DNA from: Parasitella parasitica
Taxonomy: Eukaryota; Mucoromycota; Mucoromycetes; Mucorales; Mucoraceae
DNA length: 20,704 nt
Assembly (NCBI GenBank): GCA_025201805.1
Contig: MU619311.1
Location: 126,486 to 147,189 of the forward strand
Reading direction: 5' to 3'
The position numbers and the translations under genes were made by a program. The notes below the pieces were generated by a model, which saw nothing but the letters and a program-made list of their open reading frames with translations, was not told the origin of the DNA and made no database searches. Of the stretch, positions 1 to 20,704 are shown in pieces. Position 1 is the stretch's first letter. The number at the start of each line of letters is the position of its first letter.

Positions 1-1748
1 GCTAATCTGACACTGTAAGAAAATGTTGTCATGGTATACAGATACTTTTATACGCAGTAAGCATGAGCGCATGTATAAATTTGTCTTGACGTATGCATGC
101 ATGGTGGCTGTTGAGATAATATGATACTATCACTCTTGAATACAATGATGAGTAGTCCATTTATGGTAGTAAGTAACAACAGTAAAGTTACCGTGTGCAC
201 GTATGATTATCTACACATCGCTTGATGACACAGAGATTAATCACCTGTAATTGCATCATGGTCTGTCGCAGCAAGTGCTTTTTGTATGATCCATCATAAC
301 CAGATCTCTAATGATCTTCTTGAATATTCTTTATAATAATATGTCTTTGAATAACGTTGAACTCAATTCACTCGTAAGTCTTATGTCAAAAACTTACCTA
401 TTTAGTCACAAAAAAACAGACAACGCGCACACACAAGCATACTATTGCGAGGCTGCCGTATTTACTACTCATGTAAACTTTTTCTCTGAATACATCATTT
501 GAGAGATATGAAAAAAACGTTTGAACATCACGATGGCTATTGAAATGTGATGTGCAGTCTATTGTCGATTTGATTTGCTTCTCGAGTTTGTAATCATCCT
601 CGTATTATACAGTAATTATCCTTAGGAGATGATTGGATTGCAAATTAGCTTTGGTAAATGTAAACTTTGCTTTTTTCAAAAGGTAAACAGTTGTCTGTGA
701 AATGTGCCTGCTGCGATAGGAGATGGCTAGCTACACAATATTACACACGTTATAAAATAGACCACTAAACTCCTCTTTTCTGATTGTGTGATACAAGTCG
801 CACTATCATGGTATAATTCTCTGCATAGGTGATCCGGATAAGTGATAAGAACGTAACAAATGGGTCGTATCTGTATGGCGTAATGACATGGCATCGAGAC
901 CCGCCGCATATTTCCAATCTGCAAATTTGAGCTTTATACGGAAATCATCATTTTCGTCATATATAACCTACTAATTCAGAACCCTGGCATTTAATTATGC
1001 ATGCATCTTAATTGCACCATCTACATGTATGATTGATGGAATATTGCAATATTATCAATAATACTGTCAAATTAGACCAGTTGTAAAAGTGGTTTTCTGC
1101 CAAGAGCAGCTTAGCATTGAAAAAGGACAATGTAAGCGAATATACGGCGATGCACGAGTCTATCCAGACATTGGCTACAATATGTATACTTATTTAAATG
1201 CAAAGTGGTCAAGTGAACTATATTGACAAAAAATTAACTGCATTGCATATAACGTGAGTCAATGTAGCGGCCGTGGATGTTCTTGACAAAGTGTACATGT
1301 GCGCCGTATCTATTTATCCAAAGCTAATAATAAATGCGAATCTTTCTCAAGATGATACCATAGACACCTATTTTACATGATGATCGACAAGTACACTTTT
1401 TTCGATGCATATTTAGACCTAGTGACATTGTTAATTGACCTATCAGCCATATACATGCAAAAAGAAAAGATTAATAAGGACAATATAGCTGCAACTTGAA
1501 TGGCTTTGCAATTCATCATATGTTAACAGTTATACCACATCATACGCTAGTGGCGTTTCCAACCAAATGTTTTTAATGCGAACCTGGAGTATTTTTAATA
1601 TACCCTAAATAAATCGATGCATTGAAGCCGTTCAGATCATGACCTTAATAAAAATAAAAATACAAAAAAAAAAGTATATAAATACACAAACACATCCAAT
1701 ACAGTAACCTTTTCATTCATCTTATTTTTTTCCCCACTATATCTCTTT
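1..1748. other. Intergenic region, no gene recognised
   Basis: AT-rich DNA in which the open frames on both strands are short (about 60-80 codons), overlap each other and encode nothing I recognise. I saw no tRNA-like B box, no long repeat and no transposase motif. The last 100 bases are the likely promoter and 5' leader of the bZIP gene that starts at 1749. Confidence 0.6.
1675..1684 (+). promoter_or_regulatory. TATA box of the bZIP gene
   Basis: TATATAAATA lies about 65-75 bases upstream of the bZIP start codon. It follows an A-rich stretch and precedes a pyrimidine-rich leader (CTTATTTTTTTCCCC and similar). Position and sequence fit a fungal TATA element; no transcript evidence is available. 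Confidence 0.5.
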
Positions 1749-2681
1749 ATGTCTATGAATTTTGACTCACCTGCTTCGACCAGCAGTATGCAATATCCTT
1801 CATCGAAGCAAATGTCCATTTCATCCCTCACCTCTTCTCCACTTCCAACCTCAAATAATTTGATTGCCAAATTACCAGTCGACATATCATCCCCTCCTTT
1901 GACTCAAAAATCGCCCAATACACTCGGCCGCCCTTACTTTATGACAATGCCAGATTCGCCAGAAAGCCCAAGCTTCAATGAAGCTGCTGTGGTAGCTCCT
2001 GCAAACAGCTATTTTGCACCAAAGCAGCCCGACCGTCATCCATTGTCACAGACTGCAGACAAACATGAGCGTCGATACCATCCCTACTACCAATGTGACA
2101 CGGCCGCAACATCCGATGCTGCGAGCAAACGAGCCAATGAATACAGCTACTCTGCTGACCGGTCATCTTCCATCTCATCCGCCACATCCATGTCAGTGCC
2201 TCTTTTATCTCTCAAAGAGCGCAGACAGCGCAACAAAGTCGCTTCTGCCAAGTACAGAGGAAAGAAGAAGGAGGAATACGAGAATATGCAGCAGCAAGTC
2301 TCCGCACTGCTGAAGGACAACGAAGTCTTGCAGAGACAACTGGACCAAGTCAGACGAGAGAACAACAAGCTGAAATCAACATGCGATAAGCTCCGTGGTA
2401 AGATGCTCGCAAAAAAGATGCTTAAAGAGATGCTGCAACGGCGAGGAACCATTGATCGTCAGCGTGACAATGATGATGACGATATTTTAGATAACGATAA
2501 CGATAGCGACAATGAAGACAACCATACTGAATCGTACCTGTATCTTGGACGCAGCAATGGTGCTTATTGTTCTGGTAACAGCAGCCCTTTTTTGAAAAGA
2601 CTCTATGACATTGATTTCAGCGATGACGACGATTGTAGTAGTAATCAGCCCAAATCGAATGATCGCACTCGACCCTTTTAA
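1749..2681 (+). CDS. bZIP transcription factor (Cys3/ATF4-like basic region)
   Basis: Intronless 310-residue nuclear DNA-binding protein. The basic region is at about residues 157-175 (KERRQRNKVASAKYRGKKK). It carries the bZIP invariant Asn162 and Arg170 (N-x7-R) with an N-K-V-A-S-A-K-Y-R core, closer to the Cys3/Met28/ATF4 style than to Gcn4 or Yap1. A leucine zipper/coiled coil follows at about 177-225 (heptad Leu/Val among E, Q, R and K). The N-terminal 150 residues are Ser/Pro/Thr-rich and disordered, with SP/TP sites (DSPESPS at 69-75) that could be phosphorylated. The C-terminal tail is strongly acidic (Asp runs at about 240-256 and 291-295) and may act in activation or protein turnover. 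The start at 1749 follows a TATA element; a second ATG lies two codons downstream. The bZIP class is certain. The regulon (sulfur, amino-acid or stress genes) is not shown by the sequence. Confidence 0.92.
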   Translation: MSMNFDSPASTSSMQYPSSKQMSISSLTSSPLPTSNNLIAKLPVDISSPPLTQKSPNTLGRPYFMTMPDSPESPSFNEAAVVAPANSYFAPKQPDRHPLSQTADKHERRYHPYYQCDTAATSDAASKRANEYSYSADRSSSISSATSMSVPLLSLKERRQRNKVASAKYRGKKKEEYENMQQQVSALLKDNEVLQRQLDQVRRENNKLKSTCDKLRGKMLAKKMLKEMLQRRGTIDRQRDNDDDDILDNDNDSDNEDNHTESYLYLGRSNGAYCSGNSSPFLKRLYDIDFSDDDDCSSNQPKSNDRTRPF

Positions 2682-3242
2682 CTATGAACCGCCCCTTTTT
2701 TTTTCCTTTTCTTTTTTTTTCAAATTCCACTCCTTTATGACATATAATAGCCTGCGCAAACAATTATGACAAGAACTTTGATATATACCTATAACTCTTA
2801 AACTTAAGAAAGAAACATACAAGCAATATTACGTAAACCCTTTATGATGAAGCTAATAAAAAGCATATAATTGAACCCTAAAAACGATCTACCAGCAAGC
2901 TGTATGTAATTTTGACATGCATTGTTGGCATTGTGAGTGCTATGATGCTACAGTATGTGCATGTTCTCGATTTGCAACAATTCTAAAGCGTTGGTAGATT
3001 CTTGATGCAGGAGATCCGCTCTCATCGTTTAAAAGAAAAAAAAAAAAGAAAAAAAAAAACGCACAGCTACAATAGCAATTTCATTACATCCAATCGCAAT
3101 GCTCGCGTGTTCTACTCACCTTGAAAGCCATACTGATGCATCCTCCTTTAAAAATTTCAATGGACGGGTCTCACAAGAAACTAAAAATAAAAAACACCAT
3201 GTTTCTGATAACACATACTTCTTTTCTTCTGCTTCTTGTTCA
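2682..3242. other. Intergenic region: bZIP 3' UTR and lyase promoter
   Basis: Holds the bZIP 3' end, with a T-rich stretch just after the stop and an AATAAA at 2855-2860 as a possible polyadenylation signal. An A-rich tract follows at about 3030-3059 and the leader of the lyase-like gene after that. An open frame extends upstream from 3243 to an ATG at 3099, but its extra residues are polar and would mask the signal peptide, so I treat them as leader. Confidence 0.5.
2855..2860 (+). terminator. Possible polyadenylation signal of the bZIP gene
   Basis: AATAAA hexamer about 175 bases past the bZIP stop codon. It is the only canonical hexamer noted in the spacer; cleavage at this site is not demonstrated. 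Confidence 0.35.
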
Positions 3243-4366
3243 ATGATCCTCCTGAAAGGTGTGCTGATTGCTTCGGTCCTGTATCCAATTGTAAACGCTG
3301 ATGGCACAGTTTCACCGCGAGCAGCGTCACTAAATATCACTCAGACATGGAATGCGCCTTTCCCCCCGTCCAGTGCCATCTCAGCGTCTGTTGATTATAT
3401 CATTGAAAATTGGTTCACTTCTAGCAAATCTGTTTACGGCTCAAACGACGTCAGTTTTGTGCCGGATCCTTTTGAGGCCAACAGCACAAGCAGCGTCGTC
3501 AAGGTGCTCTATCCTGCAGGCTCGTATGCTCCTGTAGCAACTAAAAACAACAGCAATGGCACAGTCGGAGGACTTGAATTTTTTTCTGTTCCTGACGGTG
3601 GAGCAACGTATAACACTGCTCTTCTGAGCTATGATCTTGCGTTTGATCCTAGCTTCGATTGGGTCAAGGGCGGAAAACTGCCTGGCATATTTGGCGGTGA
3701 GCAGCACAACCCAAACTAGACGTCGTTTGTAAATCTAACGGCTTGATGATAGGCTCTCCTGGAGACGGATGTGCAGGTGGTCTGAAGGCTACAGGCTCCA
3801 ATTGCTTTTCAGTTCGTCTAATGTGGAGAAGCGCAGGTAATTATGAAAAAAAACAATGTTTACAATCAGCTCACCTTGCTTGTGAAATGAAAAAAAAAGG
3901 CGCTGGCGAAGCTTATGCGTACATTCCAACTTCTGACAGTCTGTGCCAAACAAAGCAAGTCGTTTGTAACAGTGATTACGGTACATCGTTTTCCCGTGGT
4001 ATCGTCCAGTTTTCAACGTCGAAATGGACCCGCATGGAAATCTACATCAAGCTAAACTCTGGCTCCCATGCCAATGGTATCCTGAAAGTATGGCAAGACG
4101 GTTCATTGATGATTAACCAGCAGGCAATCCAATTTAGATCGAGTGATACTGTAGGTATTTCAAGTATGATGTTTAGTACCTTTTTCGGTGGAGGGTCTGC
4201 TGATTATGCAACAAGCGTTGATACTTACACATACTACAAGAATATCCAATTCAGTACTGGAAATACACCTGATTCAGCTGTTAGTAGCTCTGCCCTATCT
4301 TTGAGCGTACCCAATCTTTTGCTGTATGCTATTACTGCGCTCGCTCTACTAGCCTGCGGCGCTTGA
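3243..4366 (+). CDS. Secreted GPI-anchored polysaccharide lyase 14-like protein
   Basis: Three exons, 3243-3696, 3753-3836 and 3900-4366, give 334 residues. Intron 1 (3697-3752, 56 nt) starts GTGAGC, contains CTAAC and ends GATAG. Intron 2 (3837-3899, 63 nt) starts GTAATT and ends in an A run plus AG. Both split a Gly codon, and splicing joins LPGIFG to GSPGDGCAGG and WRSA to GAGEAYAYIP, the continuous motif order of fungal PL14-like proteins. Residues 1-19 form a signal peptide (MILLKGVLIASVLYPIVNA). N-glycosylation sequons (NIT, NST, NNS, NGT) lie in the N-terminal half. The C-terminus is a Ser-rich spacer plus a hydrophobic tail (about 315-334), a GPI-attachment signal. PL14 enzymes cleave uronic-acid polymers (alginate, glucuronan) by beta-elimination. 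The substrate here is unknown; wall glucuronans of Mucorales are a plausible target. The start at 3243 is chosen over 3099 because it begins the signal peptide. Confidence 0.8.
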
Positions 4367-5847
4367 TCTATCGAGTTACAATTTATATGCTAGACTTATA
4401 TATTTATACAACCAAAATTGAAATTTTATATACTGCTAAACGCAAAGATGCATGTAGCCTGACAGAAGCCCCTTTTTTCTTTCACAAAAACAAAAGAGGC
4501 TGAATGCCAATGATTTTTTGAGAGGGAGACGAGATCATAACACAACTATCACAGTCGAATAACTGAAAAAATTACACATGTACATTGGTACCGCCTATCC
4601 TCCTTGATCTAATTAAACTATTCTTAAGATGACATCTTAATGAAGAGACTCTAGTCCCCAAGAGTTCAACCTTGTACATAGCAGCATACTGCCGCCAAGG
4701 TTAGACTGTACTTGGTCGATACAAAGACACCAATTCCAAATAATCTGTGGTTTTTACCAAACAATTACAAACTGTTACCTGAGTTTGGTGTTTATCTTTC
4801 TATACTTTCGTCTTTTCGACTAGCCCATACTTTGTTGATGGCGCGTATAGTGTGTTATAAAGAATAATTATATGTTAGATATCAACTATGAAAATAGTCC
4901 TAAAAGCAATTGTCATTTTAAAAGAAGAGAACGGTGCAAGAAGCCGAACTTTCGAGCGTAGACATGACACACAATTTTATTACGTAGTATAGATCAGAAG
5001 CATTGACTGATAGCTCCAACACCAGGCAGGGTGAGCAAGGTATATCACATAGTCTACATGAACAAAACGAGCCAGGTGGAAAAAGTACAACTAAAAGATG
5101 TTTTGAACTCATCGCTACGTTATTTCTATGCTTGAAAGAACAAGGATATGACAAAAGAAAGCTCTGGTTTGACAACTATGCCGAAACAAGAGACTTTCAC
5201 TGTTCTGTTGAGCTTTCCCAAGTTGTAATAAAAAACCGAACATCTCTGTAAATGATCAAAAAATTCTACTGATTGTGCTTTTTTAAAAACCTAGTATGCT
5301 TATCAGCATTTTGACAAGCACTCTCGTCACTTCTGTCCCCTCGAGCAAAAATGGAATGCTTTAATAATTGCTTCAAATTTGTTTTCATTGGCAATGGCAC
5401 CTCTAACATGCGTTTGCTTTGCTCCTGCGCAATACAACTATTTTTTCCAAATCGACAAACCCTTAAGACTGACTTTATTATTATGAGCCACTGCACCAAC
5501 ATACATGAATGTGGTTCTCAAAGTCGTTTCATCTGTCAACACATGAAAAATAACTGAATCTATTCCATCTCAAACATTTACAAATCTACCTGGACTTACC
5601 CTCTCAGTGTAAAAATACTCCATTCAACAGAATTGGAACTGTAAAACACTAAACAAACCTCATACTACCGAACTTTTTCATCCATTTGCATTTCAAATTG
5701 CTAGTTCTTTGTAAAGTATGTATATTTTAATATTATTCTTCATAAAAAAAAAGACCCTCAGACGAATGAATATAGTACTACATTATATACATCTAAATCC
5801 AAAAAACGCCCAGGTTCCTTTGATGTTGCTGTCTGAATGACGATAAT
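4367..5847. other. Intergenic region with weak unidentified ORFs
   Basis: No recognisable gene. A plus-strand frame (5003-5251, 82 codons from a TTG) and minus-strand frames between 5266 and 5560 have fairly ordinary amino-acid composition but no motif I recognise, and the minus frames are interrupted by stops. A 17-bp palindrome lies at 4624-4640. Degraded transposon or gene remnants are possible but unproven. The right end is the 3' flank of the NDUFA13 gene. Confidence 0.45.
4624..4640. repeat. Short perfect palindrome
   Basis: TTAAGATG-A-CATCTTAA: 8-bp arms around a single base. It could be a symmetric protein-binding site or chance in AT-rich DNA. Confidence 0.5.
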
Positions 5848-6289
5848 TTAATTTTCCTCTGGGACAATAACGAATTGTGGTGTATTGTAATATTTAGTAT
5901 TGTTGTAGACAGATTCTCCAGCCTTCCAATCCTTAACATCCTTCATAATTTCTTCCTCACGAGCCTTTGCTGCTTCAGTTCGACGATAAGTATCACGGTC
6001 AGCTTCAGCAGTTAAGAGTGGGATAAGATTGATGCGAGCCCAAAGGTTTTCACGCTTTAATTCCCTGAATTTTTTTTTTTTTTTAGATGTTAGCATTCAG
6101 ACAATAACGGCACATGCCAATCGCTTTGTACCTTCTTTCAACGTTTCGTTGGAAAACTCTATAAAAACCAAAACCGCAAAAGGCAGTGACACCTGCAAGG
6201 ATGACCATACCAGATGGGCCACGTTTAGGCAAGTAGCGACGGTATTTGACTTCGGGAAATCCTTCGGCGGGAGGCAAGTCTTGAGCCAT
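5848..6289 (-). CDS. NDUFA13: NADH:ubiquinone oxidoreductase subunit NDUFA13/GRIM-19 (complex I)
   Basis: Two exons on the minus strand, 6289-6132 and 6064-5848, encode 124 residues. The 67-nt intron (6131-6065) starts GTACAA, contains a GCTAAC branch-point match and ends TTCAG. Splicing gives RNVERRELKRENLWARI across the junction. This is an accessory subunit of mitochondrial complex I (B16.6 in cattle, NB6M in Yarrowia) that threads one helix through the inner membrane. Visible features: the N-terminal GFPEVKYRRYLPKRGPSG signature (residues about 10-27), one membrane helix (about 28-46), then a charged helical tail with NLWARI and LLTAEADRDTYRR. The length suits fungal orthologues, which are somewhat shorter than the roughly 144-residue mammalian protein. 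There is no cleavable presequence, as is usual for this subunit. The gene stands alone between two long spacers. Confidence 0.93.
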
Positions 6290-6495
6290 GTTCTATTATT
6301 TGTATTAAATTACGAAGAGTGGGGAGTAAATGTATTGTTGAAAGGTTTTGATATTTTAAAATTATGGGGTTACAAACTGCCCTTCCTTGCTTTGAACTGG
6401 TATCGTGACGTCAGCAATTGCGATCGATTGTGAGCGATTGGGTATACCTCTATCAAGGCTGCATTGAGCATGCTAAGTTTAAAAGCATAAACATT

Positions 6496-6515
6496 AGCTT
6501 GAATAAATTCAAGCT
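6496..6515. repeat. Inverted repeat with 9-bp arms
   Basis: AGCTTGAAT-AA-ATTCAAGCT, perfect arms around a 2-base centre. It lies about 210 bases upstream of the NDUFA13 start codon, so it could be a promoter-bound symmetric site. Function not known. Confidence 0.5.
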
Positions 6516-7299
6516 TATAATTCGACAGCATGGTCATTTAAAATGCTTATCATAGAGAACATTTACAGAGCACAGCTCACACTGCGCTGAAAATTAACTA
6601 TTCAGCGAGCGATGAAGATGAGACTCACGTAGCCAGTTCTCTATTCATAAACCATAAAAAAAAAGGACAAAATGGCAACCATAAGTACCTGTTCAAGTAA
6701 TATTTTTGCAATTTAAGCGTTATATGCTAGTGGAAATTTCATATCAATGCTTGTTTTATATGCACCTCCTATTACTAACAAAATTTGACCAAATTGTTTG
6801 TATACAAACAAAATGTAACAATTTACATAAAATATGGACCAGCATTGACACTGAAGATTCTTATATTTGTACAATCATTTGTAGAAAGATGTATCATGAT
6901 GAGAATTGTAAATTTGTTTTTATTGTATATTCGCCTCCAAGTATACAAAAACTGCTCACAGGGCTGACAATTTTACGCTTTAGCGGGGATGAGTAGGACA
7001 AGTCATTTACCAGTAAACACTCTTTACTAAGGACCTGCTTCTCTGTAGGTTGATGAAATTTAAATTTCGTTGGCGCAACGTCTAAACTAACTGACATGTG
7101 TCATTTCCAGAAAAAATGCAAATTTGTATCAGAAACAATGCATTGAGCGACAGCAACTGGTACACATTTAAACGATAGGTTTAGATAATAAAAACAGAAA
7201 AACATCTCAGAATAAATTTCCAATATTTGGTTGATTTATACGATATAATGGACTTGGTACCTTGGCAAGAAGAACCTTTTAGAGAGAATTGATAGCATC

Positions 7300-7311
7300 G
7301 ATAGCGCTATC
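7300..7311. repeat. 12-bp perfect palindrome
   Basis: GATAGCGCTATC. It is immediately preceded by another GATAGC (7291-7296), giving three GATAGC/GCTATC half-sites within about 20 bp. Possibly a GATA-type factor site, possibly chance. Confidence 0.4.
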
Positions 7312-8388
7312 AAACGCGCTAAAAGAAAAAGGATTTTATTCAGGTGTTATAGTTCAATAGTGTCCTAATCTATTCAAATCCTATTAACTTTATCAACATA
7401 AATTTCAAAATTTCAAGATTGATAGTGTTCAGATATTTTGCATATATAATGATTGTAATCTACATGATATTAGTGGTGATAAAAGCATACATATTAGGTT
7501 TGATTTCGCAACGCATTTTTAAGCTTTACCGTTGGCTTTACAATAAGCAGCAGAAATGAGTCAAAGTAGAAGACGGCCGCAACGTAATCATTGGTCTTGA
7601 TAAAGTTTAACATGCATGCTCCTAATCGAGTAATGTCGACTTTTGCTACTTTGTCGATCGTTTTAGTGAGTTTTTATGATATAATTTGAAAGCAGCTTAT
7701 CTGATTTAGTTAAAACAAAATTTCTTTATTTTCTAATGTGTAGTTTCTCCTTTATGACCTCGTGTGTCTCTTTGGCGTGTAGACATCAATAAGATTAATG
7801 GGGAAAAAAAATAGCAGGCTATGACTAAATCATCTGCCCCTATTGATGCTCACTCGAAAAGATTATCTGTCAAGTAACCTCTATTTGTGAAAAGGTTTTC
7901 CCACAAATGTTTGACAACTGGATGTTTTATGTGTAACAATACAACATTTCATACATTTACCATGACTCACTTTTATTCAATGTTACAATTTAAGATACAC
8001 ATATTACATCACAGCATTTCAGTCCATGGTAATCCTGCATAATAAAGTCCTTCAAACAAGGCTACTCTAACAGTGAGCGACACCGCAAAGTCTACTTGAC
8101 TTGTTGGAAGCTACATACTGAATCTTTCAAGCCGGTGAGTTATTTTTTTTTTATTAGCCAAACTCTGTTTCACAATTGATTAAAAAGCAAATCATTGCTG
8201 CGGTAATTGACCGATTTTATACAATAGCACAGAGTGCTATGGATTTATTGCACGACTCGATTGACTATAGATAGCAGAATAACAGAGCTTTTGGTATTTC
8301 TACAAAAAGAGCCAGCATGAGTGGATCAAGAGGTCTTCCATCAAGACATTTGTTATCAGATTTGCGACTCCCGGCTATTTAAACTTTG

Positions 8389-8415
8389 TTTTTTTTTTTT
8401 TTTTTTTTTTTTTTT
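8389..8415 (+). repeat. 27-base T tract in the ABC transporter promoter/leader
   Basis: Uninterrupted run of 27 T on the plus strand, 45 bases before the start codon at 8461 and just after a TATTTAA-like element. Poly(dA:dT) tracts exclude nucleosomes and often mark fungal promoters. Its length is likely to vary between isolates. It creates an artificial run of Phe codons upstream of the real start. Confidence 0.8.
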
Positions 8416-8460
8416 CAAACTGCTTTTTCCTCTCAACATCCTCCTAATACATTGAACATT

Positions 8461-11400
8461 ATGGAGCCATCAGTACCGACAATTTTTTGGTACTCTGGTG
8501 GGCTAGTCATAGCTGCATGTGTCAGTGCAATTGCACTTTCCGTTCAGCGAGGAGTCTATCACAAGCAAATTCAACTACAAGACAATTCAATTGAGCACCA
8601 TTTGAAGACGGATGTAGCAAGAGACTCCAGTGTCCCTTATGCTGACTCAAATCGTTTGAATCGCATCACTTATGAAACCATCTTACTAACGGCATTAGCT
8701 GCCTTGGATCTCAAAAGAGATGTCGAGCAGCAAGTGCTTGCTAATATGTGGACTATCTCGTCCTCCATATTCATACTCATCTCCTGGCTGTATGCCTCGG
8801 TGCTCGCTGCGATTTCTCGCCGTTATCAGCTCCCTAACCGCTGGGGATGGGTGTTGAATGTCCATCTATGCGCTTTGTACACTGCTGGCTGGATTGTTTC
8901 TATTGCCAAGCTTTGGCAAGTCACCGTTCTTGATTTGTCTTGGCCAGAGTGTCTTCCGTTCCTGCTGCCTGTTATCTTGGGACTCGATCTTGTGTTTGTG
9001 ACATTTACCGTAAAGCAGGGTCCACCGTTCCTGGACGAAAACTGTCGACAAGTCTCCAGCATCAATGTCGAATCTATTTTCGGCATCCTGTTCATGAACT
9101 GGTGCACCAAAGTCGTCGATGTTGTCATCTGCAAAAAGTCGCTGCTCACTGACAAGGATTTACCGACTATGACGCCCAGCTTTCGAGCTTACAACATCTT
9201 CTACACATTTGGTGCCTCGCGCGGAAAAGACTTGATCACAAGATTGATCACGGGTAACTCCAAGGCTCTCTTACTGCAAGTCGCACTGTCAATCGTATCG
9301 GCCATGCTTTATTATGCTCCTGCGTTCTTCATGAATCGTCTGCTCCAGTTTTTGCAAGACTACAATGACGGCGTTCAATTTGAACATCCCATTCAGTATG
9401 GCGTTTTGATCGTTTTGGGAATGGGCATATCTATTGTTGTACTGGGTATTTTTGTAGGTCAACAGTGGTACTATGGTACGTATGACACATTGTCTTTATT
9501 TTATAGCTGTGTGCTGCATTGGCTGATTTCGATCTACTTGACATGTCTATAGCTTCTTGCGTGCTCCAGTCCAAGGTCAGGACGATGCTCCATGTCGAAA
9601 TTTACAGAAAGTCTCTTCGCCGCCGTGATCTTTCAGTGGCAGGTTCAAAGGAGCAAGACGACAAAAAAGAGGCTGAGGATGATGCGTCTGCCTCCACTGG
9701 TGCAATCGTCAACCTAATGGGTACGGATGCTAGTCGCATTGCTGATTTTAGTGCCCTGTGGTTTGTTATCATCGCTGCCCCTGTGGAACTAGCCATAGGC
9801 ATATACTTTTTATACCAGCTTATGGGCATGGCCTGTATTTATGGTCTCTTGGTTATGGTAGTTATTCTCCCCATCAACCATTTCAACTCGAAGTATTTTG
9901 CAAAGACGCAAGACCGCCTAATGAAGGCTCGTGATAAGCGTGTATCGCTTATGACCGAAGTATTACAAGGCATCCGTCAGATCAAGTTCTTTGCTTGGGA
10001 ATCAAACTGGGAGAAACGGGTGATGGAGGCTAGAGGCGCTGAATTGCACCAACTGGCCATCACTTACCTCAACGGTGTATTCTTTTCTCTTGTCTGGCAG
10101 GGGTAAGTTGTTGTCGAGTTGATCGGTGTTAACGCGCACTAAAACAACCCGTATCTAGTGCACCCATCTTGGTTACTCTGGTCTCGTTCTTTGTATTTAC
10201 AAAGATCCAGGGCAATGCACTGACCGCGCCTATCGCATTCACTGTCATCAGTATCTTTAGCGAACTTCGCTTTGCACTCAACGTCATCCCTGAAACGATG
10301 ATTCAAGCCATCCAAGCCTACAGCAGCATCAAACGTATCCAAAAGTTTTTGGATGAAGATGAGATTGAGTCGGTTGTGGCCCAAGACCCCCACCAAATAG
10401 TCGATTTGAGCTTCGACCGGGCCACCATCGGATGGAAGGCGCCTACAGTCGCTTTTAATGTCGAGAATGTCGCTGAAGAGAGCTTTATACTCAGGGATAT
10501 AAGCGCCAAGTTCCCCAACAACGAGCTCAGTTTGATCAGTGGGGCCACTGGCTCTGGAAAGACCCTCATGTTGCTTGGCTTACTTGGTGAAGCTGTTTTG
10601 ATTGATGGTGCCATCGCTTGTCCTCGCGTTCCCCTTGCAGAGACCATCGAATACGGAATTGACCATGTTTCTGCAGATATCAGTCTTGATGACTGGATCC
10701 TTGACCGTGCTTTAGCCTACGTCTCGCAATCGCCATGGTTGCAAAATGCCTCTATTCGCGACAACATTTTGTTTGGGCTGCCTTACATTGAAGCACGCTA
10801 CAAGGAAACTTTATCTGCATGTGCTTTGGATAAGGACATGTCGATCTTGGAGGACGGCGACCGTACCGAAATTGGCGAAAAGGGCATTACTCTGAGTGGC
10901 GGCCAAAAAGCTCGCGTAGCCCTTGCCAGAGCAGTGTACTCGCGTGCCAAGAATGTATTGATGGACGATGTCTTGAGTGCAGTTGACGCTCACACAGCCA
11001 AGCATTTGTATGAACAGTGTCTTATGGGCCCCTTGATGAGGGATCGTACCCGTATTTTGGTCACTCATCACGTTCGCTTGTGTCTCAAAGGGTGTGGTCT
11101 TCTTGTGCATATTGAGAGTGGTCGTGCTAGACACGTTGGCTCTCCCGCTGAGCTACGCCAGTCTGGTCTACTGGCCCAAATTATTGAAGAGGAAGATCAC
11201 GAAGCAGAGCAAGAAGATGCTGCTAACGAAACGACCCTCAAAGAAAACAACCCTGCCAATGCTGACGCCCAAGACTTGGAAGAATCTGCCGCTCGTACTT
11301 TGATTGAAGAAGAGGGACGTGCCTCTGGGGCTGTCAAGTTTAGATTGTACAAAATTTACTTTGGCATGGTGGGCAAGACTTTGTTCTGGATCACCATGTG

Positions 11401-13384
11401 CTTAATTGTATTTGGCGGACGAGGACTTGAAATTGGCGAAAGCTGGTGGGTCAAAACATGGGCTCAAGCTTATGATCGTTATTCTCACAGACAAGGGCAT
11501 GACAATGCTACTTTCACGTTATTCACCAACGCATCAAGTCCTGGCGCATACTCTTTTGGCATGTATATGATGTCTGGTTATCAGGCAAATGCCATCCCTA
11601 TCAATGGAAAACCAGCCTACGATGGACCCTCTGACGGGCAAATCCATCTCAACTACTATTTAGGCATATATTGTATCATTACTATGAGCAATGTTGTGGT
11701 AGGTGCTCTTCGTTACGGTTATCTCTACTGGGGCGCTCTTCGTGCAAACAGGAATTTATATGCTGAACTTCTCCACCGTGTTTTCCGTGCCCCTCTTCGT
11801 TTCTTTGACACTACACCCATGGGTCGCATCCTCAATCGTTTCTCCAAAGACTTTGAGTCTGTTGACTCCAGAATCCCTACAGATTTTATGATTTTCTGGA
11901 TTAACTGGCTAGTGATCATCTCATCTGCAGTTACAGTGTGCTGTGTCCTCCCTACGTTTATTCTTCCTATGGTTGTCGTCACAGCTGTCAATATTCTCAT
12001 CGGTATGAACTATGTGAGAAGTTCTCGCGAACTGAAACGTCTTGATTCTGTCACTCGGTCTCCTCTATTCTCCAACTTTACAGAGACTATCTCTGGTGTT
12101 GCTACTATCCGTGCTTTTGGTGCATCCCGACGCTTTTTACGAGTCATGATGGATTGCATTGATGCTAATGTACGTCCATTCTTCTACTCCTGGGCCGTCA
12201 ATCGTTGGGTGAGTGTCCGCTATTCTATTTCCTCAGCTGCTATCAATTTTGCTGCTTGCGCTTTTACTTTATGGAACTTTGGTAGACTCGACGTTTCTTT
12301 GGCAGGCTTTGGCTTGAGCTTTGTTTTGATGTTTACTGACAGTATGTTTTGGGGTGTCCGTCAATACACTAATCTTGAAATGAGCTTCAATGCCATTGAA
12401 CGAATTGTTGAATTTATGGAAATGGACCAGGAAGCACCTGCCATTACCAAGTTGCGTCCTCCGCCTCAGTGGCCGATGCAAGGTGCGATAGAAGTTAGCG
12501 ACCTGGAGATCCGGTATGCTGCTGATCTGGACCCTGTCATCAAGGACCTCTCCTTTTCTGTCAAGCCCCGCGAGAAGATTGGCATTGTTGGTAGAACTGG
12601 CAGTGGTAAATCCACATTGGCTCTTTCATTCTTCCGTTTTGTTGAAGCTTCAGCTGGCTCTATTGTGATTGACGGCATTGATATCAAAGACTTGGGCACT
12701 GAGGATCTTCGCTCCAGCTTGACCATCATTCCTCAAGACCCCACTCTATTCTCTGGAACGCTCCGTTCAAACATGGACCCCTTTGATCAGTTTGAAGATG
12801 AAGCTATCTATGCTGCGTTGCGTCGGGTTCACTTGCTTTCTGATGTAGATAACCCATCAGCTGCTAGTAGTGTTTATAGTAGCAATAACAGCACAAACGA
12901 GGTCAATGCCAATGTATTTAAGGATTTGTCCACAATGGTGAGCGAGGGCGGCAAGAACTTTTCTCAAGGTCAGCGGCAGCTGCTGTGTCTCGGCCGTGCT
13001 CTACTCAAGAGAACTGGCATTGTTTTGATGGATGAAGCAACTGCAAGCGTTGATTTCGAGACTGATAAAGCTATCCAAAAGACGATTGCCACCGAGTTTT
13101 CGGACAGTACTATTCTCTGCATTGCACATAGATTACATACGGTCATTGAATATGATCGCATCCTCGTCCTTGATCAGGGACGGATTCAAGAATTTGACAA
13201 GTAAGTACAACATAGAATTACATTGCTTTTTCTCTTTTTCATTTAATATTGACTGTTTGAGCATAGTCCTTACACCCTGATTAACAACCCTGGGTCTTCT
13301 TTTTATAAAATGTGCCGGAACTCTGGCGAATTTGAGCAATTGTATGAACTCGCCGAATCGAAACACCAAATTTTTAATGTGTAG
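8461..13384 (+). CDS. ABCC (MRP) family transporter, Ybt1/Vmr1-like
   Basis: Four exons, 8461-9475, 9553-10102, 10159-13200 and 13267-13384, encode 1574 residues. Introns are 77, 56 and 66 nt (donors GTACGT, GTAAGT, GTAAGT; all end TAG). The last junction restores EFDNPYTLINN. Layout: N-terminal TMD0-like helices (to about 210), membrane domain 1 (about 270-585), NBD1, membrane domain 2 (about 915-1230), NBD2. NBD1: Walker A GATGSGKT (650-657), LSGGQ (767-771), Walker B VLMDDVLSAVD with Asp792 where the catalytic Glu would be. NBD2: GRTGSGKS (1333-1340), FSQGQ (1456-1460), Walker B with Glu1481, switch His1512. A degenerate NBD1 paired with a competent NBD2 is normal for ABCC. A Ser/Asn-rich insert before FSQGQ recalls fungal Ybt1/Vmr1 pumps, which act at the vacuole on bile acids, drugs or metals. 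The substrate is not predictable. The start at 8461 is chosen because the longer frame begins in the poly-T tract. Confidence 0.93.
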
Positions 13385-13631
13385 AAGCTGTCTTGTATAT
13401 TGAATGAAATAAATCATATTTATATAAAAATGTGCTTTATCACTGGATTTGAATGATCACTGTATATTGTATGCGTAAATCTGACATCCCCATCAATACC
13501 ACCAGAATCACTCATCACATAAGCCCCCCCCCCCTTTGCAAATACAACTACTACAATATCTAATTCTAATTCTATTATCTACATTACTTACAGAAAAAAA
13601 AAAGTCTAAATTGTTGGTGCGCAACATCAGG
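13385..13631. other. Convergent 3' spacer
   Basis: A 247-base gap between the stop codons of two convergent genes. It contains a polyadenylation hexamer for the plus-strand transporter, a C run (about 13526-13534) and an A run (about 13593-13603). The two 3' UTRs probably approach or overlap here. Confidence 0.6.
13408..13413 (+). terminator. Polyadenylation signal of the ABC transporter
   Basis: AATAAA 24 bases past the transporter stop codon, followed by T/A-rich sequence. Position and sequence fit a eukaryotic poly(A) signal. Confidence 0.55.
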
Positions 13632-16336
13632 CTACCAAAAGCGGTTTTGCTGTTGCTGCTGCTGTGATTGTTGCTGCTCGTATCGTTGCTGTTCGTATTG
13701 TTGCTGTTCATATTGCTGCTGCAATTGTAGCTGCCTTTGCTGTGGCTGTATCTGATCCATCCCAACAGCTGATAGTCCCTCGTTGTTATTTTGAGGTTGC
13801 TGATCTGGCATTTGCTGCTGCTGGCTAAAATAGCTGTTCCATTCATCAATATCAAACGACATGGGCACGCCCCAGAAAGCAGTGCCGATGGGATCAAAAG
13901 GTCGATCGCCAGTATCGTAACTAATACTAGGCTGGCCCCCTCCTGCTCTTGTAGTGGGGGTCGATGCAAAAGTGTTATTAGGTGGCGTGGTATTATATGC
14001 AAGTGATGTGGATTGTGCGCTTGTTGTATTATTGCTATTATTGTACGGTGAATCTGCTGTTATACTCTCATTTTTGATACTGACAGGGATATTGCTGGCG
14101 TACTGTGTAAAGTATTCAGGAAACTTGTGTTCTGTGCCGCGTTGTGCATCAATAGGGTTTCTAAATTCCAAAGGTGATGGCAGTGGCGCTTCGTTGTTGA
14201 GTGGCATAATGGGGGAATTGGGCACAGCAATAGACAGTGGCTCTGGCGGCTTCAATGTGTCGCTGGTAGCTACAGGTCTATTATAGCCTTCGTCCACATT
14301 TTCTAAATTGATGTCTCGTAAACCTGCCAATTCACCCAAGATGTTACAATGGCGAGCAGATGTGATCCATGTCTTTTCCACTTCGTCCATGGCGCGAATG
14401 ATCTTGTTGATACTGATCTTTGCCTCAAAGGCAAACATAGAGTCTGATGATAGCGCATCGTTGATAAAGATAATGCCAGCTGTAAACATAAAGTATAATG
14501 CATAGTTGTTGACATTCTTGAGTCTGCCTTCCGCCATTAAGCATTCGACAATGTCCAAGATCTTGTTGGCGGAAAACGTACAAATTGAGGCTGATGGGAA
14601 CACAGAGGGCATCTCTGTCTGTGTAGGTCCTGGGATAAAAGGCCGATGAAGCAGTATCAGACTAGTGTAGAACAGCATGTGGATTTGGCAGATCTCTAGC
14701 TTTGGTGCTGGTGCTTTTTCGGCCATGCGTGTATTTGGAGGTCGATATTGAAGACATGGCGGTAAGTTGGTCATCCATTTGTTGAGCGCGCGGTCAAGTT
14801 TGGAGATCACTGTGTCAGGAGATGCCATCATTGAAATTTGCTTCCTACCCTTTACCATGTACAGTTGGCAAAGAATCTCGCCTAGAATCTCACATAGTTT
14901 GATCAGCTGATGGAATTCTTCCATGATTGTTGGTTTGTTATTTTTATCATCCTCATCCACCTCAGACGGGTAAGGCGTGTCTAAATCGCGCGCATCAATC
15001 ATAGGAGCTCTTCCATGCATAGCACAGGTCAATCGATCCACTACAAAACTGCAATAAAACACTCGTTTTCTTTCCTCTTTTTCGGCATCTGACAGATTCC
15101 AAGTATCACAGTTTCTATTCAACCCTAAATTCTGACACATTCGGAACGCCTATCGAATCAAATATCAGTATCTGAAAAGATCGCCATAGGTGAGGATCTT
15201 GAACTTACTAAACCACTGTAGAGCCAACCACGAATGTTTTTGAGAGCGCCATTTTGATGACTACTAAGCAGTAACAAAGATTGCACAGTAGACACCTTGA
15301 AGTCATCCCATTCAAAATCCAGTAATATCCTAGCTCTTTCCAAAAAGATATCACCAGCAGTATCACGCAAAGCCGGATCAGATCTCACTCTCAAGTCGGG
15401 CGATATACGAGACGCGACACAGTAAATAGCATTCAACAGCAGCGGCGGAGGAGGTGTTTGATTGGACTCGAGTGACGCCAGGAATGACTTTTTGTGCAAG
15501 AGTGGCAACAATGGATAGAAATGGGTAAAGTACAAATCAAGCAAGTGTTTCGATAAATCAGGAGAAGGTAATTCAAAGGGATCGACGGCTAAAGGATTTG
15601 GCAGAACGTTTTGACCGTCAGGACGCTTTGTACGATGATAGCCTCTGGAATTAAAATGGAATGCACCATTTTGAAAATTCTTGCTGCCTCTCAACATGTA
15701 AAAACCAGAAGATTTGCCATAATAACGTAATTGGCCGCTTTCGTCGATAGACAGATTTCCAAGAGTTTCGTTAGCGTTTTCTTCGCTGGAGTTCGCTTGC
15801 GGAATATGCTCATCATCATTGGAAGCAGAAATAGAAGGTGCGTCGTGTAACACAGCTTCGTTGGAATGATGAATTTGGTCATCATGGCCATCTTTGCGAG
15901 CAGGGCGAGGTCGAACTAGTTCACCGTAAGCAGTTTCCAAAGGAGAATTCAATTCAGCTAATATAGCCTGAGAGCGAGGGTCGTCTTCTTGGATAATGCT
16001 ACCCAGCAATGCCTCTAGTCTATGCAACCTTCCTTCAATAGCTTCAATATAACCTTTTGGGGGGCCTCTCTAGAATAAGCAATATGATTAAATTGTAATG
16101 CAATGCATTGGTTGCTATGGTTACCAACCTTCTTGGTCGATTCTTTGTATGTACATGGCAACCCTAATGATACACAATTGCTGCATACTGCTTGAGCACC
16201 ATCACATTTGACTTTTTTCTTTCTGCACTGCTCACTAGATAAAATCAAATGTTGAGTAAATCAGGGCTGCAATGGAGCTGTTCTGGTATTACCATGCTTT
16301 ACTAACACGCTGTCGTTTACTATGTTCATCCGGCAT
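13632..16336 (-). CDS. Zn(II)2Cys6 fungal-specific transcription factor with polyQ tail
   Basis: Four minus-strand exons, 16336-16293, 16234-16129, 16069-15209 and 15149-13632, give 842 residues. Introns are 58, 59 and 59 nt. Intron 1 splits the codon for the first zinc-binding Cys; splicing restores KACEQCRKKKVKC. The cluster is CX2CX6CX6CX2CX6C at residues 15, 18, 25, 32, 35 and 42. A linker (KKRGPPKGYIEAIEGR, 49-64) and short coiled coil (HRLEALLG) follow, as in dimeric zinc-cluster factors. The fungal-specific regulatory domain (Fungal_trans, PF04082 type) spans about 225-480, with LYFTHFYPLLPLLHKKSFL and, across intron 3, GWLYSGLAFRMCQNLGLNR. Intron 2 uses donor GTTGGT, the only choice that keeps the linker. 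The C-terminal third is Asn/Ser/Pro-rich and ends in a Gln/Tyr/Glu repeat (about 795-838) before NRFW, probably an activation region. Targets unknown. The start at 16336 is the nearest ATG in frame with the cluster. Confidence 0.9.
13636..13760 (-). repeat. CAG/CAA repeat encoding the polyQ tail
   Basis: On the minus strand, imperfect CAG/CAA trinucleotides encode QQ[QR]YEQQ-type units repeated three times, followed by an uninterrupted Gln run just before the NRFW C-terminus. It is interrupted by TAC/TAT-GAA codons and stays in frame. Likely length-polymorphic. Confidence 0.85.
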
Positions 16337-16359
16337 ATTTTCACGCTTTCAATTGATTT

Positions 16360-16431
<72 letters not shown>

Positions 16432-16602
16432 TGCTTAAACAGAGACACGGATGTATGACATTGATTGAAACTCCAAAAAATGTTTGGGCAAGAATTAATT
16501 TTATTACATTTATGCCGAGAAATTTGATATTGTGATGTATTTACATTTCATTTAGAAAAAATCAAGTACAACTGAGAGAAGAAAACCGTCAGCCAGCGAA
16601 AA
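16337..16602. promoter_or_regulatory. Short promoter of the Zn2Cys6 factor with 3' flank of the next gene
   Basis: Only 266 bases separate the start codon of the Zn2Cys6 gene (16336) from the stop codon of the upstream minus-strand gene (16603). The interval must hold the promoter of the former and the 3' UTR of the latter. A quarter of it is a homopolymer tract. Confidence 0.5.
16362..16428. repeat. 67-base homopolymeric A tract (T on the minus strand)
   Basis: Sixty-seven consecutive A on the plus strand; read in the direction of the Zn2Cys6 gene it is T67 ending 25 bases before the start codon. It may act as a nucleosome-excluding poly(dA:dT) promoter element. The exact length is unreliable, because sequencing and replication slip on such runs. 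Confidence 0.9.
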
Positions 16603-17598
16603 TTACCGCTTAGAATAACCAGCACAGGTCCACATGATCAGCTTCCAGACAACTGCAATGCCAGCTAAACCTGCCACCACAATACCACCATAAAACAGAC
16701 CGTTATGAAGAACAGTATTACATAAAGTACCGCATGCATCCTGAGCGGCCTCCGTTATGCTGCTACATTGATTGCTGCATTTATCTGAAACCACTTTGGA
16801 CGCTATGATCATGGCAATCCCAGCTGCCACAAACGCACAGCTAATCAATAGGCAAAAGAACGAACAACATGTAATGGCTGGATTGTAGCAGCAGCAATTG
16901 CAGCCACGCCTTCTTTGTTCTTGTGGAGGCCTGTATCTGTAGGAATCTGCTTCCTTCTCGGGCGCAATTGTCGGTTTAGCCATATATGGCTCGTATTGTA
17001 GCTGTTGTTGTTGTTGTTTTTGCTTTTTTTCTAATTTCTTTTGTTCCTTCTTACTTAAAATGGGTTTTTGTACCATCGGCGTCTTTTCTGCTTCTTCATA
17101 ATCTTCTTTGGCAAATGAGTTTAACGGGATCACTTGGTTCGGTCTAGAAGTGATCACATCTGACGCTGCTGTTGCTCCGGGCGATGATGATGATTCGTTA
17201 TGGTATGGTGTAGGCTGATGGCTGTGTCGAAGGTATTCTTCTCTTTCCTGTCTTAGGTATTCATCAAGCGATTGTCCATGAGGATCGTGGTAGTCATTTA
17301 TACCTTGCACCTGTCTTTCCTCGTCTAAAGTATGGCCATACATCTGAGGCTGGTAGTAGTTGTTTACAACAGGTGGCGGAGGTGGTAAGGGCGTGTATGT
17401 CTCTGGCTGGGTTTGTGCCATGATGGGTGGTTGTGGAAGTGGTGTTGAATACTCAGGATATGATGGCTCTGGGGAAAAAGCGGCAGGGCTGGTGGTAGGC
17501 GGATGTTCTGCTACTGGATCTTGAAGAGGAGGTGGGGGAGGATACTGGCCAGCAAATGGATCTGGATGATTTGAATTGCTGTTGTTGTGAGAATACAT
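16603..17598 (-). CDS. Proline-rich, cysteine-rich two-helix membrane protein, function unknown
   Basis: Single-exon 331-residue protein I do not recognise. Residues 1-85 are low complexity and Pro-rich, with PPPPP runs and repeated short Pro/Tyr motifs that could bind SH3, WW or EVH1 domains. Residues 90-230 are charged and polar, with a Lys/Gln-rich stretch (KKEQKKLEKKQKQQQQQ, 183-199). A basic RRR (229-231) and a Cys cluster (GCNCCC, 232-237) precede helix 1 (about 241-267). A 35-residue loop holds four Cys (274, 278, 289, 293; CX3C...CX3C) that could form disulfides, then helix 2 (about 301-325). The basic residues flanking both helices suggest both termini are cytoplasmic and the loop lies outside or in the lumen. 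The juxtamembrane Cys may be palmitoylated. The gene is co-directional with the Zn2Cys6 gene, with separate promoters. A membrane scaffold is a guess only. Confidence 0.8.
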   Translation of the reverse strand: MYSHNNSNSNHPDPFAGQYPPPPPLQDPVAEHPPTTSPAAFSPEPSYPEYSTPLPQPPIMAQTQPETYTPLPPPPPVVNNYYQPQMYGHTLDEERQVQGINDYHDPHGQSLDEYLRQEREEYLRHSHQPTPYHNESSSSPGATAASDVITSRPNQVIPLNSFAKEDYEEAEKTPMVQKPILSKKEQKKLEKKQKQQQQQLQYEPYMAKPTIAPEKEADSYRYRPPQEQRRRGCNCCCYNPAITCCSFFCLLISCAFVAAGIAMIIASKVVSDKCSNQCSSITEAAQDACGTLCNTVLHNGLFYGGIVVAGLAGIAVVWKLIMWTCAGYSKR

Positions 17599-17663
17599 TT
17601 TTTTGTTGAAATAAAATATAAAAGAAATGAAAAGGCAAACAAAGATAAAACGGATGCGGAAGA

Positions 17664-17671
17664 ATTTTATA
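17664..17671 (-). promoter_or_regulatory. TATA-like element of the membrane-protein gene
   Basis: TATAAAAT on the minus strand about 65-75 bases upstream of the start codon at 17598, the same spacing seen for the bZIP TATA box. Not experimentally shown. Confidence 0.4.
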
Positions 17672-20021
17672 TTTTATTGTATTCATATTTATTTTTAGAA
17701 TTCATTATATATAGACAAAAGATATTATAACCTTTTCTTGGCGATATATCACAACTTTTCCTTGTTCTGGCTGGGGTTTTTCTCAATCTATAAAGATGCA
17801 TCACACAATAATACTTTCAGCCTCATTGTGCAGCAAATCTTGGAAGTAAGAATCCATGAAATGGCCACCGATGACTTCATTTAATACCAAAAAAGCAGAA
17901 GAAACAAATAGGGGAACAATAAAACTGCAAGTCTGTCAACTTCAAGTTACGGTATGAGAACTTTGCATTTTTGCTTAACTCTTTACGACTGACTAGAACT
18001 GCTCAACTGGATTGAGCAGTGGAGAGTAGAATAGTAAATAAGCATAGCGACATCTTTTTAGTATCCGGGATAATGATTATTTGATATGCTCTTTAACCAT
18101 TATCATGGACAAGAAAGAATTAAAACGAAATTCATTCTATTGCGTGGAAACAGACGGGGGAAGATAATAGGTTGCTACGCAGTCGTAGAGACTATGATCC
18201 ATGGGAATACAAAAGATCACTGAACTAATGGGTGTAGTGGCTAGTGATAGATTTGCGTTTGCGAGATGTTTTGGGATCAATATTTGCAAGTAGCTTGTAT
18301 GCGAACAGCTTGTATTATAATCTTCATGACCTCGTCCAGTTGCCTTTGTATTCTATTTTGCAACTCTCTTTTCATACCCTTCCGCCTCATAAATTGCGTA
18401 GAATCTTTTGCTGATTCCACGACGAGCACAGTTGATGCTTAACGGATATCAATAGGTGAAAGATGTCTTACAGCATGAATTCATTGTATACAATTTTTAT
18501 CAAATCGATTCAACGGCAACCTCGTGTTATTACTTATGCTTTGAACTCGTTGTCAATTTCAACCAGGAGACACTATTGATAAATTCTACCGGACAACATG
18601 CACATGAGTAAAATGCCATTTGCATCATACTCTGCAACGATATCCTCATTTCCGTTCGACATCTTTAGAAGAGACCCACATAGAAGCTTCCATGTCGCTT
18701 GAATCAAAAATACTGGGATTTCCATTGTTGAAACGACATCGCATTGCTTCAACTGGAAATCCCCGTCTTTTCTATCGTCTTTATTTATTACTTTTATTAA
18801 TATTTTTTCCTCATGTTTGCTTTGTACGTTTTCAAAGTTATCAACATCAGCAGAAGAATAATCCAGAACGCTTTTTGATTGACCATTTTTGATGACCTGT
18901 TTTGGAGGAAATTTGGTCGATTAATAGTTTCAGCCCATCAACGCATTATGTCCTGAGAACCCAAGGACCTTTTCAAAATTGAAAAATTGCAATGTAATAT
19001 ATTCTTTATTGCAGCTAGAACATACCTTCCGGATTGCGGGCAAACTCCAGTGAATGTGAGTGCAACATACTTTTCTAAGCACCTTTTTATTACGGAAACA
19101 TGATCATTGCTATATGAGCACAACTTGATGCGCAAAATCAGTTTTTTTTTCTTCTAAATAATCATAAGTAACAGATATTTAGTCTTAACTTCTGCTAAGA
19201 GAACCGTAGAACTGCAATGCTGTAGAGGTTGTCCAACGAATGTTTTTGATCCTATAGGAAACAGCAGCTAGCTTATTAAAGTTTGATGGTAATGGCTCAA
19301 ATTTTAACACTTCATACAAACTAACATAAATAAATTATAATACAGTGTACAGCTGAGCAAACCTTACATTCACATCATAGTTGCTGAGTCGTAAGTATGT
19401 TACATCATTAGATTGGCGAATCGAAAAATTGAAGAATGAGCGTTCAGCCTGCTGTCGTTCTAACACTCAAAAAGAGAGAAGTGAATGGTAGATTTTGGTT
19501 GTAATCTTCCGCCGGCAGCATTTGGCTCATCAAAAGAGACCCCAGCAAAGTTAAATGCTTGCAATATGCCACTTTGAAATTGCAACAGCATATGCAAGGA
19601 CTTTAATATTTACTTATCGAATATCATGAAGACAATGATATTTCTCAAAGTATATCTTACTTGGCAATCACTTCCAGTCGGCTTCGTACCGATTGAGAGA
19701 GGCGACACTAAAGATTAGTGTGAGAATGGATATTATGGGTTTTATGGGTTTTGGAGAAGTCATCCACCAACTCTTCATTTTAGGAAGTCCAGAATTCATT
19801 TCTCGACATTTTGAGGATCTCTTTATCTTCACAATAGTCTAGGGTAATCAAGCCCACGTCCTCAAAACATTAAAGGGTGGAAGAGCAGAGCAAGTAGCAT
19901 TTAAATCGACACCTGAGTTGCAGGAATCGGAGAGTATTGTTGTAAGATTGATCTCTTTACAGTTGACGAAACTAGGTTGGGCCAATGAAAATAAATTTTG
20001 GTCATTTCCAAATTGAGTTGG

Positions 20022-20097
20022 GACACGATTACAAAAATGGGTCACCAATACGAAAATGGGACAACAAGATGAAAATGGGACATGAGTACGAACATGG
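20022..20097. repeat. 19-bp tandem repeat, four copies
   Basis: Four adjacent 19-base units (20022-20040, 20041-20059, 20060-20078, 20079-20097) share the form G[AT]CA...A[AT]...[AC]AAATGG, with divergence in the middle. Read on the minus strand each unit begins CCATTTTCGTA or a variant. The period is not a multiple of three, so it is not a protein repeat. It lies about 60 bases past the Fanzor stop codon, fitting a subterminal repeat of a transposon end or part of the guide-RNA locus; that link is inference. Confidence 0.75.
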
Positions 20098-20158
20098 AGA
20101 CAATGTTAGTATCTTTCAGAAGAGTCAGAATTGTTACAGCTTCTTACCTGCAATATCT

Positions 20159-20704
20159 TTAAGTTGCTGACTCACCGGAGTGAGCAACAACAACCACATT
20201 GGAGGTGGCGGTATGTCTTTTGAAGACCTGGGGGCGGCCATTTCCACACCAAATTGATGTGGCAATGGTGAGCATGTTCTTCGAGGCCATGGCATCGCGA
20301 TTCCAGTAAATGTTGCAAGTTTTACACTTCAATACCTGATAGATTTTGGTTTCTTCGTTGTCATGGCTTATCTTGAAATTCTCCAGATCTTCTTTGAGAC
20401 AGTTGTTGCAGATCTATGAATAATCGGTTTTAGCTGAAAGTGCAATATGTGAATTATGTGTGTTTTTTCCTTAATAACCTTCGATGTTTTGAACTCATTA
20501 ATATCTACAAGTAATAGTTCACCAATTCTTTCTCTTGCTTGTAGTTGCTTGTATATTTTGTTCGAAACACCATGTCTTAAACCTCTGAACTTTATATGAT
20601 CTTTGTTTTTTAATCCGTCACCAAAGACCACCAGAGGCATCTTACTTTTGTCACCTACTTCAAAACAAGCCTTGTTTTTTCTGTTGTAAGTTACAAAAAT
20701 AACA
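20159..20704 (-). CDS. Fanzor (eukaryotic TnpB-like RNA-guided nuclease), C-terminal part
   Basis: Minus-strand gene entering from the right edge. Exon 20704-20479 (open to the edge; first full codon at 20703) and exon 20413-20159 are joined over a 65-nt intron (20478-20414; donor GTTATT, acceptor CATAG). The visible protein has 159 residues: MPLVVFGDGL, then RGLRHGVSNKIYKQL, VDINEFKTSK | ICNNC, LKCKTC, and WNRDAMASKNML. Fanzor/TnpB nucleases are RuvC-type DNA endonucleases guided by an RNA (OMEGA/fRNA) encoded next to the gene. Visible parts: the Glu of NEFKTSK, the likely relocated RuvC-II glutamate described for Fanzors; the CxxC...CxxC zinc ribbon; and the RuvC-III Asp in NRD. No stop or frameshift interrupts the visible part. 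Without splicing the frame ends at 20368, before the zinc ribbon. The RuvC-I Asp and N-terminal domains lie outside the window, so activity cannot be judged. It is probably part of a mobile element. Confidence 0.85.

Follow-up and report, generated by a model that had tools for sequence, protein, structure and literature searches.

The sequence analyzed here (the window) is a stretch of 20,704 nucleotides that forms the right end of contig C75 (positions 126,486-147,189) in the 30.7 Mb, 232-contig genome of Parasitella parasitica, a mucoralean fungus and a mould that parasitizes other moulds. Ordinary host genes in the window encode a bZIP factor (1626-2681, plus strand), a polysaccharide lyase 14 (3033-4366, plus strand) and a fungal-specific transcription factor (16069-13632, minus strand). 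An ABC transporter gene (ABC_membrane, ABC_tran) occupies several open stretches at 8383-13204 on the plus strand. Its protein shows 81-83% identity to proteins of several Mucor species, and no P. parasitica relative above 63% identity was found among the best 120 of 7651. Of two database proteins assigned to P. parasitica, P0042 is 99-100% identical to three pieces on C65, and P0079 reaches 60% identity in its highest-scoring piece (also on C65) with no piece above 68%.

At the right end of the window, the minus strand carries the final two exons of a Fanzor gene. Fanzors are RNA-guided DNA-cutting enzymes borne by mobile elements. Exon A (20479-20680, 202 nt; KNKACFEV...LLLVDINEFKTSK) and exon B (20159-20413, closed by the TAA stop codon at 20161-20159) are separated by a 65 nt GT-AG intron at 20414-20478 (GTTATTAAGG...TTCATAG) and together encode 151 aa after splicing. 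As the earlier note on this DNA had described, no single frame covers the motifs of the protein: there are two open frames on the minus strand with a gap at 20478-20414, and joining 20479 to 20413 places TSK-ICNNC, CKTC and NRDAMASKNM where that note had read them.

The start of exon A was set with the help of a sister copy, C68, which in a DNA search of the genome is the nearest relative of the window element (98% identity over 748 bases). C68 continues for a further 466 bases upstream, where an exon ending in VTRSK is followed by an intron (GTATATAC...TTATAACAG) and then by exon A. Because C68 shows the complete upstream intron, window positions 20704-20681 are intronic and exon A is limited to 20680-20479. 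A model of Mucor circinelloides (P0007) reads VTRSKRKNK contiguously across this upstream splice. A first exon running up to 20704 was also considered and is ruled out by C68, in which 20704-20681 is an intron tail. In the window, that tail (20681-20704, minus strand; acceptor ...ACAACAG) is all that is present of the upstream intron, as the contig ends inside it. Rightward extension of the window gene is likewise ruled out, since the contig stops at 20704. The description of the gene as a "split Fanzor" holds for the Fanzor C-terminus and not for the split, which is an intron plus the end of a contig.

Family and splice junction of the Fanzor gene end

A profile search, proposed earlier as a check on the family, places the spliced protein inside the Fanzor/TnpB family. 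The 151 aa sequence matches Pfam PF07282 (TNB) with 34.2 bits (E-value: 2.9e-8; cut-off: 26.3 bits). When solved structures were searched at E-values up to 10, two matches were obtained: SpuFz1, a Fanzor1 of Spizellomyces punctatus (PDB 8gkh; E-value: 1.9e-5), and L79 (9b0l; E-value: 4.7e-4). Profile A2, from Mucorales proteins, matches SpuFz1 with an E-value of 1.1e-8. From these matches we identify the C-terminus of the window protein as that of a predicted Fanzor, with a Fanzor1 as its closest solved relative.

The residues expected in this part of the protein had been reported as complete. All of them are there and both exons are open: the RuvC-II Glu just before [TS][TS]xxC, the RuvC-III Asp in [NQ]RD and four zinc cysteines, arranged as the two CxxC pairs (CNNC...CKTC) of a TNB zinc ribbon that lies with RuvC-III in exon B. 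The Glu of NEFKTSK (codon 20496-20494, minus strand, exon A) aligns with chain position 935 of SpuFz1 and the Asp of NRD (codon 20296-20294, minus strand, exon B) with chain position 1000; subtraction of 394 (counted on the alignment) gives E541 and D606, respectively. In the SpuFz1 paper, the metal-binding residues are given as E541, D383, N385 and D606 (PMC10432273), and the catalytic Glu of Fanzor is placed in the loop preceding the TNB domain in a second study (PMC11423790).

The earlier note had located the splice junction at 20478-20414, and this position is correct. We take the junction to be real because splicing lifts the PF07282 score to 34.2 bits from the 17.5 bits of unspliced exon B (under the cut-off), because the junction is crossed without an intron in seven reads from further Fanzor copies of the genome, and because TSK[IVT]CN is contiguous in 7/7 of the Mucorales models examined. 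When the window was aligned with the seven genome reads (two of which, L004 and L017, are near duplicates), E62, T65, S66, C69, C72, C97 and C100 were invariant in all eight rows. Database proteins matching the spliced protein numbered 14 among 43 candidates, a set limited to 0.55-1.75 times 151 aa in which full-length Fanzors could not appear. That both parts are not covered by any single frame could also mean that what looks like an intron comes from a frameshift or a misassembly, with the gene broken at 20478-20414. This is highly improbable: the same 65 nt occur in C68, C36 and C111 (with 0, 2 and 0 differences, respectively), the ends are GT-AG, and protein models from three genera read on without a break at this residue. 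These models include P0001, the model of a copy equal to the intron-bearing C111; P0001 and the C111 read are equal from the first Met, save for five codons at a stop.

Ends and copies of the transposable element

Downstream of the stop codon lies a terminal inverted repeat (TIR) of about 145 bp (19958-20102, minus strand) with GGGAC-type subterminal repeats visible by eye. It forms the right end of the element and finishes with TA at 19958-19959, the right-hand copy of a 2 bp target duplication. A DNA search of the genome (40 of 65 candidates scored) found at least 44 places, most of them stopping no more than a few bases from window position 19958, and the genome holds at least 17 matches to exon A and at least 53 to exon B (selves included). 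Of 29 loci from the DNA search that were checked (L058-L086), 17 have a match that stops at a stretch of element interior which the searches appear to read as N; the Fanzor and element-end counts are lower bounds for this reason, and the shorter matches are no sign that a copy has lost its nuclease exons. All of the copy ends examined (28/28) read CAAC(T/A)GTA with sequences diverging beyond, and the window likewise ends in GTA. A search with the end pattern (up to three mismatches) returned at least 69 sites, compared with 21 for the reversed pattern. Ends of the window type (family 1) form 11 facing pairs that are 2.6-4.3 kb apart.

The target duplication was read at a sister copy on C111 (18446-21066; L060, L084), where the element interrupts the frame of an Argonaute (Piwi-domain) gene. 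Joining the flanks of this copy with one TA yields a continuous reading frame that matches Piwi (E-value: 3.2e-5) with 23.8 bits, below the Pfam cut-off of 28.9. An uninterrupted Argonaute paralogue on C3 aligns with residues 11-51 of the query; as its 41 residues are encoded in 123 bases, the alignment is gap-free. The Argonaute frame kept open by a single TA between the joined flanks fits a 2 bp TA duplication, and inspection of six paired copies by eye showed no longer one. A 2 bp TA duplication is a mark of Tc/mariner elements. Together with the TIRs, the duplication read at C111 assigns the element to a predicted Tc1/mariner-like group. We conclude that the minus strand from 20704 to 19958 very probably represents the 3' portion of a Tc1/mariner-like transposon carrying a Fanzor1-type gene, and Fanzor1 cargo in Tc/mariner elements is reported in the survey by Bao and Jurka (2013, PMC3627910). 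Separately, at least 163 matches to DDE_3 (Tc1-type) transposases were counted in the 30.7 Mb genome, with 150 of 301 candidates scored. Searches with DDE_3, DDE_1 and Transposase_1, which appear to read the element interiors as N, tied no transposase to the element, an outcome that carries little weight in either direction.

Both exons are readable in five copies. The window, C68 and C36 keep theirs open (with a GC donor in place of GT in C36), and those of C111 (in-frame stop) and C133 (interrupted inside exon B) are broken. The window and C68 differ at 5 synonymous of 92 sites and 6 non-synonymous of 361 (p = 0.051), and the window and C36 by 5 synonymous and 7 non-synonymous changes (p = 0.074). 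For the window and C111 the counts are 3 and 6, and for C36 and C111 they are 3 and 11. These few changes weakly favour past constraint. The positions of the RuvC-I Asp (D383 in SpuFz1), WED and REC of the window gene fall beyond the contig end, and no DPG-type motif, WED or REC was found in C68 within the 466 bases upstream of the window match. Whether the window copy is a dead relic of a Fanzor element that was formerly active, moved along by transposition only, appears to us evenly balanced. The two broken copies among the five speak for a relic, as does the presence of only the last two exons within the contig; the open exons of the window with every expected residue in place, and the slight lean to constraint in the comparisons with C68 and C36, speak against it.

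A one-sided AT motif at left ends

The host DNA flanking the copies differs between the two ends of the element. For this comparison, 49 of the 69 pattern sites were taken (window included), the 20 with 2-3 mismatches being left out; 36 belong to family 1 and 13 to a sister TIR family. In the strict assignment for family 1 (7 left and 12 right ends), the Fanzor tail marks the right end of the element. AT precedes the TA (5'-AT-TA) at 7/7 of these left ends and at 1/12 right ends (p = 1.6e-4), the sole right end with AT being that of C68. When pairs assigned by the A variant are added (4 pairs, the A variant being the left end in C29), the counts are 10/11 left and 1/16 right (p = 1.4e-5), and with 4 A-variant singles added as well they are 14/15 and 1/16 (p = 8.6e-7). 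Among the 15 left ends, only that of C23 is without AT. Unassigned single T-variant ends have AT in 1/5 cases, and in the sister TIR family AT occurs at 0/2 left, 0/5 right and 1/6 unassigned ends. As background, 90 of 1298 TA sites in window positions 1-19900 are preceded by AT.

The idea of an AT motif arose from the first ends examined, and that part of the count is post hoc. All five of the left ends examined after it (C170a and C29 by strict assignment; C34, C18 and C33 by the A variant) have AT. The left end of the window copy itself lies beyond the contig, so the motif is known from sister copies of the family. The AT at C111 lies in the reading frame of the host Argonaute gene, so at this copy its source is the target rather than the element. 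In the literature searched on Fanzor in Parasitella, Mucor and Mucorales, neither the window family nor the flank motif is described; the one-sided motif at left ends is a new observation here.

The AT sits where a TAM should lie, which suggests that RNA-guided cutting has shaped the family, and we infer that the AT at left ends is its TAM. It could instead be a site preference of the transposase. Mariner-type enzymes can prefer certain sequence around TA, and no omegaRNA was seen: the RNA from the stop codon to the right end folds no more stably than shuffled sequences (z = +0.54), and an Rfam search of it gave no match. We consider the transposase explanation unlikely for four reasons. First, near-identical TIRs should give like flanks at both ends, yet AT is found at 7/7 left and 1/12 right ends. 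Second, AT precedes 90 of 1298 TA sites in the background. Third, the AT at C111 belongs to the host sequence and lies in the Argonaute reading frame. Fourth, a TAM of 5'-ATN has been measured for another Fanzor of P. parasitica, PpFz1 (PMC11423790).

Proposed re-insertion and comparison with known Fanzors

A TAM at the left ends would fit the following cycle. A transposase would cut the element out and paste it into TA targets, and the Fanzor would be directed by an RNA transcribed from the right end, with flanking host DNA as the guide. By analogy, and from its position only, the candidate guide of the window copy is the flank next to the right end (19938-19957, minus strand). The Fanzor with its guide RNA would cut the emptied site next to 5'-AT(TA), and repair of the cut site would copy the element back in. 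Cutting of the emptied site followed by copy-back repair is a scheme that has been proposed for TnpB. On this model we infer RNA-guided re-insertion from the asymmetry of the flanks. That the flank is a footprint of such re-insertion, with only copies 3' of 5'-(Y)AT-TA being kept, is a tentative proposal that we rate somewhat below even. If re-insertion does occur, the Fanzor may possibly also return copies without their own nuclease. To our knowledge, the role of Fanzors for the host or for the transposon is still open. As the family has many copies with sharp ends and its flank motif is one-sided, it makes the re-insertion idea testable from genomes and then by cleavage assay.

SpuFz1 is the best solved match of the window protein and shares its zinc ribbon, as well as the E541 and D606 that align with the window Glu and Asp. 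Like the window gene, it is carried by an element that has inverted repeats (PMC10432273). The two are distant in sequence, the alignment covering 93 residues of the window query. SpuFz1 is encoded by a single ORF and has the TAM CATA according to the same paper, whereas the window gene has introns and the TAM proposed for its family is AT(TA). Gene-less copies ("ghosts") are known for SpuFz1.

The earlier remark that few such enzymes have been characterized is fair, with the qualification that one of them, PpFz1 (Parasitella parasitica Fanzor 1, PDB 9cf0; PMC11423790), comes from P. parasitica itself. This species is described as a fusion parasite (PMC4241652) and is reported to donate nuclei in horizontal gene transfer (PMC4807231). 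PpFz1 belongs to the same nuclease family as the window protein, and its measured TAM, given as 5'-ATN in PMC11423790, agrees in kind with the AT proposed for the window family. PpFz1 was not found as a match of the spliced window protein among solved structures at E-values up to 10. Family profile A2 gives it 16.9 bits (E-value: 0.047), and mixed profile A1 gives it 32.7 bits. PpFz1 has an FRI insertion. Judged by the scores, the window family and PpFz1 are different Fanzor lineages, which suggests that P. parasitica carries a second lineage beside that of PpFz1.

Among the elements described by Bao and Jurka (2013, PMC3627910), the PUl-4-type Fanzor1 Tc/mariner elements share mariner-like TIRs, a TA duplication and Fanzor1 cargo with the window element. 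The same survey reports Fanzor1 in Mucor, Rhizopus and Phycomyces. The mucoralean elements ROr-4, PBl-3 and MCi-4 are MuDR-like there with 9 bp duplications, in contrast to the TA-duplicating, mariner-like window element, and MCi-2 and MCi-5 are unclassified in that source. All of these elements were compared with the window element by description. The window gene is best regarded as a predicted new relative of the known Fanzor family, a placement made from matches and motifs.

Further Fanzor and TIR sequences were noted elsewhere in the genome. A second TIR family, with CGTCGACTGTA ends, occurs on C6, C9, C39, C42, C56, C61, C64 and C72 (L100-L112). Both of its left ends are without AT; five of its right ends adjoin matches to a Fanzor zinc ribbon, and TA starts 4/5 of their flanks. 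Other Fanzor lineages were found in at least 36 places. Among the matches listed, a DPG/DSG motif resembling that of RuvC-I was seen by eye in an open stretch at L003, L004, L019, L040, L043 and L056, and the open stretch of L004 matches SpuFz1 with an E-value of 9.8e-6.
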